Source: Marvania coccoides
Lineage: Eukaryota > Chlorophyta > Trebouxiophyceae > Chlorellales > Chlorellaceae
Reading direction: 5' to 3'
Length of the DNA stretch: 64,000 nucleotides
Assembly (NCBI GenBank): GCA_963854735.1
Contig: OY978097.1
Span: 2,604,001-2,668,000, forward strand
Shown here: in pieces, positions 42,313 to 49,105 of the stretch
Layout of the letters: every line of letters begins with the position of its first letter
Numbering within the stretch: position 1 is the first letter of the stretch
Program-made: the position numbers and the translations under genes
Notes under the pieces: generated by a model
What the model was told of the DNA's origin: nothing
Database searches by the model: none
What the model saw: the letters and a program-made list of their open reading frames with translations, nothing else

Positions 42313-43401
42313 ATGAAGCTCAAAGCGCTGGGCAGTTGGCGCGGTACGCAGGCAAGTTGACTATTTTTGCTCTCAATTTGGGATTAACTTCCAATAATGC
42401 TGAAATCCTCCTCATTTCATTGTAGACTGGAGCGCCAGCAGTTCGCCAGCCACTCCATACCACCCATCGGCGGCATCCCACAGCAGTACGAGCGCACCCA
42501 GAGATTGAGCTGATCATTACAGACGTCGACGGCACTCTCCTCGACTCGCAAAATCAACTGAGCACCAAAAACGAGGCCGCCATCGCCGCCGCCGCTGCCG
42601 CAGGCGTGCCCCTGATGGTGGCTACAGGCAAAGCCATCGGGCCTTGGGCGGAACGAGTGCTGCCACGCCTCTCTTCACAAATGCCTCAAGTTTATCTGCA
42701 AGGGCTGCTAGTTAGGTCCTACGAAGAGGGCATCATTCTGCAACGCACGCTGGAGGATGAAATCCTCAGGGAGACGGTGGATTTCGCTGCCCGCCATGCG
42801 CTACAGTTGACGGCTTACTGTGCCGACAGAATTGTGTGCGAGTCCACTGATGAACACTCAGACAGACTCGTGTTCTACGAAGAACCCACGCCTGAAGGCA
42901 TCGGTACGAGAAGCACCACATTTTTAATGCCCTGTATATTTTTCTTTAGATTTAATTAGATTTTATTGTCCTTCCGTAATTGCAGGTCCGCTCCACCCTC
43001 ACATTGGCATCCTTCCCATCCAAAAAGTGATTTTCATGGCTCCAGAGCAGCGCATCGCACAGATCCGTCCAGCGGCGGTGGAGGTGTTTGGCGGGCGGGC
43101 TTCTCTCACCTCGGCGCTGCCCGGGATGCTGGAAGTTTTACCGAAGGGGGCTTCTAAAGGCGTGGGAGTGGCGTGGATCCTAGAGCGGCTGGGGATCAAC
43201 CCAGCGCGGTGCCTGGCTCTGGGAGACGGCCAAAACGACGTTGAATTTTTGCAGCTGTGTGGCTTGGGGGTGGCGGTGGGGAACGCTGGAGCGGCCGCCC
43301 GCGAGGCAGCTGATGTGGTGTTGGCGCGCAGCAACGACGAAGATGCAGTGGCGTACGCAATAGAAGAGTACGTGCTGCGGCCACGAGGGCTCTCGCTTTA
43401 G
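42313..43401 (+). CDS. Cof-type HAD-superfamily phosphatase
   Basis: Exons 42313-42351, 42426-42903 and 42986-43401 encode 310 residues. HAD motifs are in order: motif I ELIITDVDGTLLDS, motif II LMVATGK, the conserved lysine in LPKGASKGVGVAWIL, and motif IV LGDGQNDVEFL. A C2-type cap lies between motifs II and III, as in bacterial Cof/YbiV sugar phosphatases and plant homologues. The first intron begins CAG|GCAAGT, a GC donor; the GT alternative at 42345 gives the wrong frame and meets a stop. The N-terminal ~35 residues lack acids and may be a targeting sequence. The substrate is unknown, probably a small phosphorylated sugar or nucleotide. Confidence 0.85.
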
Positions 43402-44815: not shown

Positions 44816-47469
44816 TCAAGGCGCGGTGGAGCAGACGTAGAAGGTGGGCACGTCCACGGCGTTGACGCCGTTAAACTTGGACGCGCCGCAGATGGTGTAG
44901 GCACCCATGCGCGGGAACAGCAGCCAGTCGCCGACCTGCAGCTCCGGCAGCGGGTAGTCCCGCACAACCGTGTCCAGACCGTCGCAGGTGGGTCCAAACA
45001 CGGTGGACGGCACCACGTCGATGGCGGCGCGGGTGGGATCACCCAGGGGGCGCGGGAACACCGCAGCGTGGTCGTACAGCAGGCAGTTCATGGAGCCGTA
45101 CAGCCCGTCGGTGACCCAGTAGTCAAAGGTGGCGGGGGCGCCAGGCTCAGCGCTGCGGCTGCGGCGGCCGTACACCAGGCACGCCAGAGTGGCCACAGAC
45201 TCGGCAAAGTAGCGACCGGGCTCGGCGATCATGCGCACGCCGCACCCCTCGGGGAAGTGCACGGCCAGGGAGGAGTTGAGAGCCGCCGGGACGCCGCCCA
45301 GGTCCACCTTGCCGTCGGCGGAGAACCGCCCCCCGCAGAAGCCGCCCCCGATGTCCAGAATGGTCATCTCGAAGCCGTACGCAGCGCCCAGGTCAAAAGC
45401 CCGACGAGAGAGCTCCACGGCGTAAGAGAACGCAGCGGGGTTGGTGGCACCGGAGCCCACGTGGAAAGAGATGCCATCCACGGGCACGCCGTGGCGGCGC
45501 GCGGCCGCCAGCAGCGCCTCCCACTCCCACTCCTCGGCGCCGAACTTGTTGCCCAGGGGGCAGCGGGCGGTGGGGTCGTCGGCGCGGATGCGCAGCAGCA
45601 CGCGGCTGCCTGGGGACCAGCGGCGCAGCTTGAGCAGCTCGGCCTCGGTGTCAAAGGTGGAGTGCGTGACGCCCTTGGCGGCGGCAAAGCGGATGTCGGC
45701 GGGGCGCTTGCAGGGGTTGGCAAATATGATGCGATCTGGGGAGACCCCCATGGCGGTCACCTGCTCCACCTCCGCGGCAGATGCGCAGTCGAAGCCCGCG
45801 CCGAGCGCCGCCAGCACGCCCAGCAGCGCGGGGTCGCTGTTGCACTTCACCGCGTAGTGCGCGTGTACGCGGGGCAGCGCCTCCTTCCAGGCGTGCCACA
45901 GCCGACGCACCGCGCCCAGGTCCAGCACGTACAGGTTGTCCTCCAGTGAGTGCGCGTCGATAAGGGCCCTGGTGTGGGCATCGATGGCGATGGCGTCGCC
46001 GTGGGACAGCGGCACCGCCGCGTGCTGGGCCACAACCTGCTCGAAAGTGAGCGGGAGGGGGGTGTCCAGCGGGCGGTCGCCCGCCGACCCCAGGCTGCAG
46101 TCGCTGGAGTTGTCGGAGCCCGCCAGCAGGTCGATGTCGCTGGGGACAGAAGACGGGGCGGTGAGCGTCTTGAACGACGGCATGTGCTTCAGCACGCCGC
46201 GCGGGGAGCCAGCGGAGTACTCGGACGACTCGGAGGAGGAGCCGCAGCCCGCCTCAGCCATGCGTACGCTCTTCACCCGGCCCACTGACGGCGCCATCTT
46301 GGCCGCCCTCTCCAGAGTGAAGTAGGCCACGTAACCGCCGCACTTGACCTCCTGGTAGGAGCTGGAGTGGAAGTCGTATCCCGCGGGCGCCAGGAAGGAG
46401 TCTCCCCACCCCGGGGACGCAGCTCCGGGGGTGATGGCGTCGGCCGACAGCGCCACCGCCACCGAGGAGGGTGCCAGCGCTGCCACGCAGCGCGCGACGA
46501 GCTCCGCGGGGGAGGTGACGGTGGGGTCGTACCCGCACAGCTCGAAGGATGCGTAGGAGAAGCCGTCCTCGGGCGTGATGTGCACGGTGGAATATTCACC
46601 GCCTGCCATGCCGTTCATGGAGTAGCCGCACGGCTCAAAGACGTAGTCGTCGATGGCGTGGGCGGGGACCAGGCTGGAGATGCCCGCGGAGGCGGTGACA
46701 GCCTGGGAGGAGACGAAGCCGGCGTCACGGAAGAACTGGGCCGCCTTGTCGGGGTGCAGCCCAGTCATGCAGACCTCCAGGGTGTGGCGAGAAGCGCGGA
46801 TGGGGCAGGGGGTGTCCTCGTCCATCTCGGAGGCGGAGCGCGCGCCGGCGGGGCGGGCGCCAGCCACGTAGACGTGCCACTGCAGTCCCGCAAGGGCGTC
46901 ACCGAGGACGTAGGCAGAGGAAGACCCCAGGCCGGCGAACAGATCGTGCAGGGTCTTGCACTCGTGTTCAAATCTGAAGTGCGGAGAACAAACGAAGAAT
47001 TGGGGTGAAAAACCCGTCAAAAATGGATAGAAAATCGAAAAATAAATTTGGGCGTTAGATAATTTTCTCACCCGTGGTGCGGCTCCGGCTGCTGCTCGGG
47101 GAAGAGGAAGGAGGCGCGGGTGTATTTGACCCTGGAGGGCACCATGTTGATGCCCGCGGCTAGCTCCACCACGCGCGGCACTGCGTCCAGCAGGCGGGTG
47201 GTCCCGCAGGTCTTCAGCACCATGCGGTTGGGGTACACAAACAGCGATGACTCGGACAGCACGTAGGCGTCGAACTCATCGTTGGAGCGGGCCGACACCA
47301 CCTGGCAGGCCGCGAGGTCCAGCATGCCGTCCAGCTGGGCGCGGGTCAGGGCACGCAGGCCGGCGGCCGGGGGCGGCGGCGCGCCGGAGGAGGGCTCGAA
47401 GCTCACCGAGATGCGCTTCTCGCTGCCCTCGAAGACGGGGGCTGGGAAGATTTCGGTCGGGGGCGACAT
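44816..47469 (-). CDS. Bifunctional S-adenosylmethionine decarboxylase-ornithine decarboxylase
   Basis: Exons 47469-47072 and 46973-44816 form one frame of 851 residues. Residues 1-~370 are eukaryotic AdoMetDC: FEGSEKRISVSF, the processing site LSESS (cleavage before S74, which becomes the pyruvoyl group), the proton donor C88 in KTCGTT, and S251/H264 in YSMNGM...HITPE needed for processing. A Ser/Asp-rich linker (~370-437) follows. Residues ~438-851 are a complete fold III ornithine decarboxylase: PLP lysine K509 in HYAVKCN, HVGSG, DIGGGF, EPGRYF and the catalytic Cys C796 in GPTCDGLD. The products, decarboxylated AdoMet and putrescine, are the two inputs of spermidine synthase. Order matches the Plasmodium fusion. 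No C-terminal PEST tail is present. After self-cleavage the ODC half stays on the large chain. Confidence 0.93.
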
Positions 47470-47588
47470 TGAATAGACTTGTGTTGGTTTTGTGGGGGGG
47501 ATAACTAAGGAGGGAAAGACTGAAGATTTGAAGAGGTGGGGGACCTCTTTTTAGAGAAGAAGAGTCAAAGACGCGGTGCACGGACCCG

Positions 47589-48042
47589 TTATTTGGGCTT
47601 CTTCACGCACTGCAGCGACGAAGGGGGAAAAAATGGGGGTGGGAGGGGGTGAGAGGGCGGGCTCATTTTGGAGGTTGAAAATTTTCGCCCCAGGCGGCGG
47701 CGACAGTTTTCGAGGCAAAGAGGCGTGGCGTGCCCCGTCAGGCCAGTCTTCGGCGAAAACGCGGCCAAAAACTCACGTCGGTGAAGCCTGCGCTATAGGG
47801 CTCTGCAATAAGAAAAGGAAAGGGACAGTCTTGTGAGATCCGGCGCGCATCAACTCAAAGACTGACCACCACAGAAGCGGCGGCGGAGGGCGGTCAACCG
47901 CGCAATGGCTCCCTACGATCTCACCTGCTCCCCAGGGCCGGATCTCGGCAACAATGGGCGGGAAAGGGGGCTCAAACGCGCCGCTACTGTGACTGTTCGC
48001 CTTATTCACACTATTGAGTCGACTCGCTGGCTCGGATTGCAT
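47589..48042 (-). CDS. Conserved upstream ORF of the AdoMetDC transcript (three exons)
   Basis: This 54-codon ORF lies on the same strand as the AdoMetDC-ODC gene and ends 119 bases before its ATG. Exons are 48042-47925, 47802-47777 and 47609-47589, with GT-AG introns and matching phases. The peptide contains FEPPFPPIVAEIRP and ends SAGFTDCVKKPK. These line up with the land-plant AdoMetDC upstream ORF, whose peptide has a YEAPLGYSIEDVRP-like middle and ends SAAYSNCVRKPS. In plants this peptide stalls ribosomes when polyamines are high and shuts down translation of the main ORF. The frame is also open to an earlier ATG at 48105. No ATG occurs between this ORF and the main start. It is too short and too split to be found by simple ORF searches. 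Confidence 0.85.
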
Positions 48043-48673
48043 GGCGCTGGGAACGAGAAACTTGAGGGGAAGCCAGCTTGCTTGCTGTAAAGGATACGGG
48101 GCCAATGAAGGCTTGATTTAACACAAAATGTGTGGACAATGAGAACGCGGGGGGGCACGCTACAGAGCGTGTGACAGCGGTGAAGGCAGGAGACTGGGAA
48201 ACGAGCGTGATAATCAAGGGAAATTCGTTGTGATTGAAAGTGATTCAGTGGCCGGCGACTGTGTTGTTTTCTTCCTTTCTTCCCCCTTTTTGAAAATCAA
48301 TGTTTGCGATTTTTTGGGTATAATTGCCGTATGGCGTTGCTGGTCAAATAAGAACAAAATTTACTGAGGGCGGGTGGAAACCACTCGATGGAACTGAAAT
48401 CAACACGAAGAATTATATTGTTTCCCGGAGACCCATTATTTTACTATGCAATGCAATTTTGAACACGTCAAAATAAATGAATGAATAATTGATGGCTCAG
48501 CGTGCTTGATCTGAAAACTTAATGCCATATTGCATCTTTGATTAGTTTTTTCCCAAAACAAGAAGCGCCAGCTTTTGTTCTTTGCGCCCCATGAAGCTTG
48601 CAGCGACAAATAGAAGCGTTTCGCCGTAGCTCCCGTGCACTGCTCTTGTCAGCAGGCAACATTACTACGGGAC
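48043..48673. promoter_or_regulatory. Divergent promoter region, AdoMetDC-ODC / CX9C protein
   Basis: This holds the promoter and 5' leader start of the AdoMetDC-ODC transcript (minus) and the promoter of the CX9C gene (plus). The part from 48230 to 48560 is AT-rich. No motif was recognised. Confidence 0.4.
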
Positions 48674-49105
48674 ATGCCGTCCGCTCCTCCACGGAGTCCT
48701 TGCGACCGCCTCCTGGCCGCTCTGAAGGACTGCACTCGCAAGCACCCCGCCCAGCCTGAGGTCTGTGCCCATTTGCACCGCGCTGCGGGGTGGTGTTTCA
48801 TCAAGAAAGCATGCCCAGTTGAAGGTTGGTTGCTAGATCATTAGAATCATTAGAAAAATACATAGAAAGAAAAGATTGAGAGAGATTTGATGGCCCCTTA
48901 CGTATAGTTTTCTCTGCCGTCTCTCACAGTTGAGGATTTGGAGGGGTGCGTGGGCACAGGGCGATCCCACCGTCAGTTCCAAGGCCCTCCGGCTTCGGTG
49001 CCGAAAAAGTGTCGGCAGCATGCCACCAGGCTCGAGGTCTGCCTGGTGCACCACGAGGTCGAAGATTCGCCAGCTAACGATAACGCAGGCAAAGGGGGGG
49101 TTTGA
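48674..49105 (+). CDS. Four-CX9C (double CHCH) mitochondrial intermembrane-space protein
   Basis: Exons 48674-48824 and 48930-49105 join in phase 1 to 108 residues. Four cysteine pairs have exactly nine residues between them: CDRLLAALKDC, CAHLHRAAGWC, CPVEVEDLEGC (created by the splice) and CRQHATRLEVC. Twin CX9C helices are oxidised by the Mia40 relay and held in the mitochondrial intermembrane space. A double set in ~106 residues is the layout of complex I subunit NDUFA8 (PGIV). However, the gap between the second and third pairs is shorter here (five residues), so another CHCH family is possible. There is no presequence, as usual for this class. Confidence 0.72.

Follow-up and report, generated by a model that had tools for sequence, protein, structure and literature searches.

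Introduction

In animals, ornithine decarboxylase (ODC) and S-adenosylmethionine decarboxylase (AdoMetDC, or SAMDC) are governed by separate devices, the former by antizyme and the latter by an upstream open reading frame (uORF). Plant AdoMetDC genes are preceded by a small uORF (CPuORF homology group 3, HG3; Pfam PF08132), and a paper from 2014 reportedly found that polyamine-responsive ribosome arrest at the stop codon of the AdoMetDC1 uORF triggers nonsense-mediated decay in plants. According to the available excerpts of PMC5745906, introns in the Arabidopsis SAMDC genes lie in the uORFs only, and an overlapping tiny uORF is present in AtSAMDC1 and AtSAMDC2 but not in AtSAMDC3. Homologues of the leader peptide (group-3 uORFs) were reported from Ulva and Chlamydomonas (AJ841703) in 2007 (PMC2075485, in excerpt). 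A table in the available part of a 2018 review (PMC6356823) lists ODC and SAMDC of Chlamydomonas under different accessions, which would leave its leader in control of AdoMetDC alone. The same part of that review gives XP_003057072.1 of Micromonas pusilla as both ODC and SAMDC, gives SAMDC as absent in Chlorella variabilis, and contains no mention of an ODC fusion. A bifunctional ODC/AdoMetDC is described for Plasmodium in the excerpted text of PMC10216422. There, as in the predicted fusion considered below, both activities are carried by one polypeptide. We know of no plant-type leader for the Plasmodium bifunctional enzyme.

Here we describe a locus in 64,000 nt of contiguous DNA from the green alga Marvania coccoides (the window). 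We are fairly confident that it holds a chlorophyte member of the AdoMetDC leader uORF family, located in the predicted spliced 5' leader of a single fused AdoMetDC-ODC gene, with polyamine feedback ascribed to it from land plants and an arrangement that most likely goes back to the ancestor of green plants. The uORF resembles the plant HG3 uORF in its place before AdoMetDC, its length class and the presence of introns inside it, and has in common with it the core E.P....[IV]RP.G and the end SA...[ND]C.[KR]KP.stop. It differs in having a fusion downstream instead of AdoMetDC alone, no tiny uORF, a final Lys, and a score under the Pfam cut-off. The main ORF (mORF) contains one intron beside the two predicted in the uORF, whereas the Arabidopsis main ORF has none. 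The uORFs of Ulva and Chlamydomonas belong to this leader family too and likewise come from green algae. Fusions from the green lineage in databases, including that of Micromonas, have the same domain order and catalytic motifs as the window's, and among the protein models screened a leader was seen only in two merged ones, P0058 and P0115. No description of an AdoMetDC leader before a fused AdoMetDC-ODC was found among the papers listed in searches of open-licence literature. What appears to be new is the leader ahead of the fused enzyme; algal leaders as such were already known.

Results

A predicted split uORF precedes the mORF

The preliminary description had proposed a 54-codon ORF, split over three exons, in front of the enzyme gene, and its coordinates, frame and peptide are borne out. 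Table 1 shows that the three pieces join in frame on the minus strand to give 165 nt, encoding 54 aa followed by TAA; both introns have the donor GTGAG, with the acceptor TTGCAG for intron 1 and CTGCAG for intron 2. The full reading is MQSEPASRLNSVNKANSHSSGAFEPPFPPIVAEIRPWGAEPYSAGFTDCVKKPK-stop, and its C-terminal end is SAGFTDCVKKPK-stop. Splicing and translation of the uORF are predicted.

Table 1. Features of the uORF, the mORF and their surroundings (window coordinates).
Feature	Position	Strand	Remarks
HAD-type hydrolase (PF08282), at least 2 exons	42426-43401	+	downstream of, and convergent with, the fusion
mORF exon 2	44816..46973	-	remainder of AdoMetDC, then linker and ODC domain (from about 45946), stop
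mORF intron	46974..47071	-	98 nt, GTGAG..TTCAG
mORF exon 1	47072..47469	-	AdoMetDC start, LSESS motif
Spacer, uORF stop to mORF ATG	47470..47588	-	119 nt, no ATG
uORF end in exon 3	47589..47609	-	CVKKPK + TAA, putative arrest end, separate 21-nt coding piece
uORF intron 2 (predicted)	47610..47776	-	167 nt, GTGAGT..CTGCAG, phase 0
uORF exon 2	47777..47802	-	encodes ..EPYSAGFTD
uORF intron 1 (predicted)	47803..47924	-	122 nt, GTGAGA..TTGCAG; alternative 47801-47916, GTAGGG..GCAGAG
uORF exon 1	47925..48042	-	ATG at 48042; alternative exon end 47917
Intergenic region, divergent	48043..48673	.	should hold promoter and 5' end of leader (inferred)
Cx9C / Cmc1-like small protein, divergent neighbour	48674-49105	+	two exons as joined; PF08583 E=0.0004, 20.8 bits vs cut-off 22

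Upstream of the mORF start, only two ATGs follow that of the uORF, at 47850 and 47666. Both fall within predicted introns, and the second shares the frame of CVKKPK. From 48435 downwards the predicted spliced leader has a single ATG, where its base composition would predict 8.0; this count starts just below an upstream ATG and assumes the transcript start. An overlapping tiny uORF was not found, the minus strand from 48435 to 48043 being free of ATG. On the other side of the gene, the Cx9C-like ORF beginning at 48674 on the plus strand bounds the presumed shared promoter region.

Both introns of the preliminary description are in frame with canonical ends, and the site of intron 2 matches one in Closterium (see below), while the boundaries of intron 1 are less firm. 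Intron 1 may instead span 47916-47801, with a GTAGGG donor, to give a uORF of 56 aa. In that variant the number of residues between RP and SA equals the land-plant spacing, and the match to PF08132 (AdoMetDC_leader) rises to 22.5 bits (E=0.00011) from the 18.5 bits (E=0.0018) of the 54-aa form. By general splice consensus the CAG/GTGAGA donor and TTGCAG acceptor of the 54-aa form look stronger; donor hexamer enrichment over Markov expectation, computed from the window only, did not separate GTGAGA from GTAGGG. The arrest-type C-terminal end is common to both forms.

The uORF peptide is a homologue of the land-plant leader

A scan of the spliced peptide against 24,736 Pfam models gave AdoMetDC_leader as the sole family match, with both forms under the curated cut-off of 25 bits. 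We compared the locus with a hidden Markov model (HMM) of plant leaders, built from 96 distinct leaders that came from the 120 best-scoring proteins among 461 hits; those with names are from flowering plants. These proteins had been fetched with a profile holding the window peptide and one Arabidopsis peptide, neither of which was entered into the HMM directly. The search space was all spliced ORFs of 40-70 aa with 0-2 introns of the form GT[AG]..AG (GTA and GTG donors only), and it covered both strands for the controls, which were overlapping stretches of 600 nt taken every 150 nt from this window only. Within the 600 nt that precede the mORF, the two top scores among 278 spliced ORFs belonged to the 56-aa variant (20.3 bits) and the 54-aa ORF (17.3 bits). 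The best control reached 10.6 bits among 502,349 spliced ORFs (838 stretches, 798 of which gave a scored ORF), and the best of 400 dinucleotide shuffles of the leader reached 7.4 bits among 35,609 ORFs (332 shuffles gave a scored ORF).

The C-terminal pattern SA...[ND]C.[KR]KP is present in the window uORF directly before the stop. By a loose pattern, SAAYSNC or a close variant followed by x[RK] was found at the C-terminus of all 120 retrieved leaders (best 120 of 461 hits). The last residue of the window uORF is Lys, where 120/120 of the same best-scoring leaders have Ser after the Pro, and its middle has diverged, reading VAEIRP against IEDVRP in plant leaders. Taken together, the Pfam match, the null tests and an intron site common to the window and Closterium support homology of the uORF to the land-plant AdoMetDC leader, as had been proposed from an alignment of its end and middle.

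Other searches of this kind were negative. An unspliced 89-aa reading of the uORF had no Pfam match, an Rfam scan of the window at gathering thresholds had no match, and a protein search with the window uORF alone returned no candidate. A PF08132 profile search of the unspliced genome gave nothing at E up to 10, as is expected for a uORF of 54 aa that is split over exons, and the control was equally silent. Among the retrieved leader proteins, P0132, P0185, P0196 and P0205 extend past KPS with Trp, as if the gene caller had read through a TGA stop.

The mORF encodes the only AdoMetDC and the only ODC-like protein found in the genome

The mORF (ATG at 47469, stop at 44816) encodes 851 aa, with PF01536 followed by PF02784 and PF00278; its two exons match PF01536 with 1.8e-44 and 4.2e-43. 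The catalytic motifs LSESS, YAVKC, EPGR and GPTCD are all legible in the translation, and they occur in 117, 118, 118 and 119, respectively, of 120 listed relatives (759 found). For the C-terminal part the closest solved structures are ornithine decarboxylases, with 1f3t first and human 1d7k included, and for the N-terminal part the closest is the S-adenosylmethionine decarboxylase 1mhm; we take 1f3t to be trypanosomal and 1mhm to be from potato. By its sequence, the 851-aa protein is an AdoMetDC-ODC fusion with both domains in one reading frame.

The genome (22.5 Mb, 15 contigs) has a single AdoMetDC locus, that of the window. PF02784 occurs at three loci, namely the fusion, a diaminopimelate decarboxylase-like gene (lysA match of 398 bits, cut-off 298) and an arginine decarboxylase-like gene, whose match is partial and under the model cut-off. 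The fusion is thus the only ODC-like locus found, and the earlier placing of the leader before ODC as well as AdoMetDC holds. Since an arginine decarboxylase homologue is present, ODC need not be the sole route to putrescine. No match to ODC antizyme was obtained in a PF02100 profile search of the genome, and the control genomes were likewise all without a match; the replacement of antizyme-type control that the preliminary description suggested gains no support from this search. One spermidine-synthase-like locus was found; this gene and the diaminopimelate decarboxylase lie about 3 kb apart (G000:C2:1764211-1768740).

A streptophyte gene model appears to share the intron 2 site

We screened the 120 listed relatives (759 found) for a leader within the protein gene model, from the first residue of each model as far as 30 aa beyond the AdoMetDC start motif or, for the 30 models without that motif, over the first 150 aa; some models are incomplete. 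Two of the 120 contain one. P0115, from Closterium, reads as leader (PF08132, 45.0 bits), AdoMetDC and ODC, and P0058, a JGI model with the label Chlat, which we take to be Chlorokybus, scores 30.4 bits. At its junction P0115 runs ..FRSAAYSN and then SPLGLPCPAFEGFEKR, so that SPLGLPCP follows the leader, and P0107, the protein of another Closterium, begins MESPLSLPCPAFEGFEKR (MESPLSLPCP). P0115 therefore exits the leader just before the Cys position, which is the site of the phase-0 intron 2 of the window, and enters the enzyme at an apparent whole codon. Compared with the start of P0107, this junction fits a phase-0 donor at the residue of window intron 2. P0058 exits its leader after ..AAYAD, at or near the same site, and the residues that follow can be read as a poor leader end, which makes it weaker support than P0115. 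The intron 2 site thus appears to be common to the window and at least one streptophyte model.

Proposed mechanism and alternatives

By analogy with land plants, we infer polyamine-dependent arrest at the stop codon of the window uORF. At high polyamine levels, ribosomes that have made ...SAGFTDCVKKPK would stall at the uORF stop (47591-47589) and block those that follow from reaching the mORF. At low levels termination would be fast, and ribosomes would arrive at the mORF, 119 nt further on, by scanning or reinitiation. With AdoMetDC and ODC joined in one polypeptide, both committed steps on the way to spermidine would answer to a single feedback switch, and one leader peptide would control both fused enzymes. 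With the mORF intron 517 nt beyond the uORF stop, it can be speculated that stalling or termination on the uORF might trigger decay as well. Since the putative arrest end is on its own 21-nt piece behind intron 2, it would be lost if that intron were retained or a different acceptor used.

The splice sites were originally picked with the plant peptide in mind, and a chance resemblance produced by choosing them to fit has to be weighed. However, the score was reached by 0/838 control stretches and 0/400 shuffles given the same freedom, and the match lies directly before the genome's one AdoMetDC locus; we give this explanation almost no credence. A homologous relic, derived from a plant-type leader but no longer sensing polyamines in this alga, would accord with the weak score, the diverged middle, the Lys in place of Ser at the end and the missing tiny uORF. 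Against this, a very deep divergence has left the start, the stop, the splice-site consensus, the open frame and the C-terminal core unbroken, and we would not expect a neutral, split ORF of 54 codons to survive, so a relic seems unlikely.

It is also conceivable that alternative splicing joins the leader exons to the mORF, where they would encode the N-terminus of a longer enzyme isoform instead of, or in addition to, a regulatory uORF. The donors at 47776 and 47924 each have five in-frame acceptors between 47588 and 47381, a join of 47776 to 47544 would yield 924 aa, and P0115 and P0058 are merged models of just this kind; for angiosperm HG3 uORFs, uORF-mORF fusion ratios of 0.17-0.27 are given in the available text of PMC7106846. 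Yet only 2/120 listed relatives have the leader in their models (some of which are incomplete), the three nearest relatives begin MSPP as does the window mORF, and a plant-like CVKKPK-stop end would serve no purpose if the exons merely extended the N-terminus, all of which leaves such an isoform improbable. A regulatory uORF of the plant leader family is the reading that we prefer, and it would tie the classic plant translational switch to the enzyme fusion of green algae, liverworts, a lycophyte and ferns.

Distribution and age of the leader-fusion gene

Relatives of the fusion were sought by scoring 7,992 candidates, those sharing most words with it; 759 were found and 120 listed. AdoMetDC and ODC domains are both present in 119 of the 120, and P0029 comprises the ODC part only. 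Named bearers of the fusion are Nannochloris, Micractinium, Trebouxia, Coccomyxa, Auxenochlorella, Bryopsis, Tetraselmis and Cymbomonas, together with Klebsormidium, Closterium, Marchantia, Riccia, Selaginella, Adiantum and Ceratopteris. The fusion thus extends from green algae to liverworts, a lycophyte and ferns. With the leader also present in streptophyte models, this alga is not alone in having the arrangement.

A tree was made from 25 rows, the window and 24 of the 120 listed relatives picked where a name or label allowed placement; it left out other named rows (e.g. Prototheca, Riccia fluitans and further Trebouxia) and is unrooted, without an outgroup. Three streptophyte rows were placed by their labels Chlat, Mesen and SM as we understand them. 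The tree splits 14 chlorophytes from 11 streptophytes with branch support of 100/99, and the window adjoins Nannochloris desiccata (80% identity over 831 columns). Such a split is what vertical descent from a green-plant ancestor would give. Together with the spread of the fusion, it suggests that the leader and fused enzyme were probably ancestral in green plants. The position of intron 2, too, appears to go back to that common ancestor.

In that ancestral gene, one ribosome-arrest switch would have set both committed steps, and the fused ODC would later have been lost or split off in seed plants. The odds seem to us evenly balanced that seed plants kept the leader and the AdoMetDC half of such a gene, the plant AdoMetDC uORF being the remnant of a whole-pathway switch that made antizyme dispensable. 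If true, the plant AdoMetDC uORF, which has been studied in such detail, at one time governed the spermidine pathway as a whole. The leader ahead of the fusion also opens the origin of the switch to direct tests in small algae.

No leader DNA of a chlorophyte relative was retrieved. At the DNA level, no loci related to the Nannochloris protein P0001 were found in the viral or genome contigs searched, and a search with a 17-row fusion alignment gave no viral-contig locus. The same alignment retrieved five bacterial loci (L009-L013) from the genome contigs, each matching one enzyme half only.
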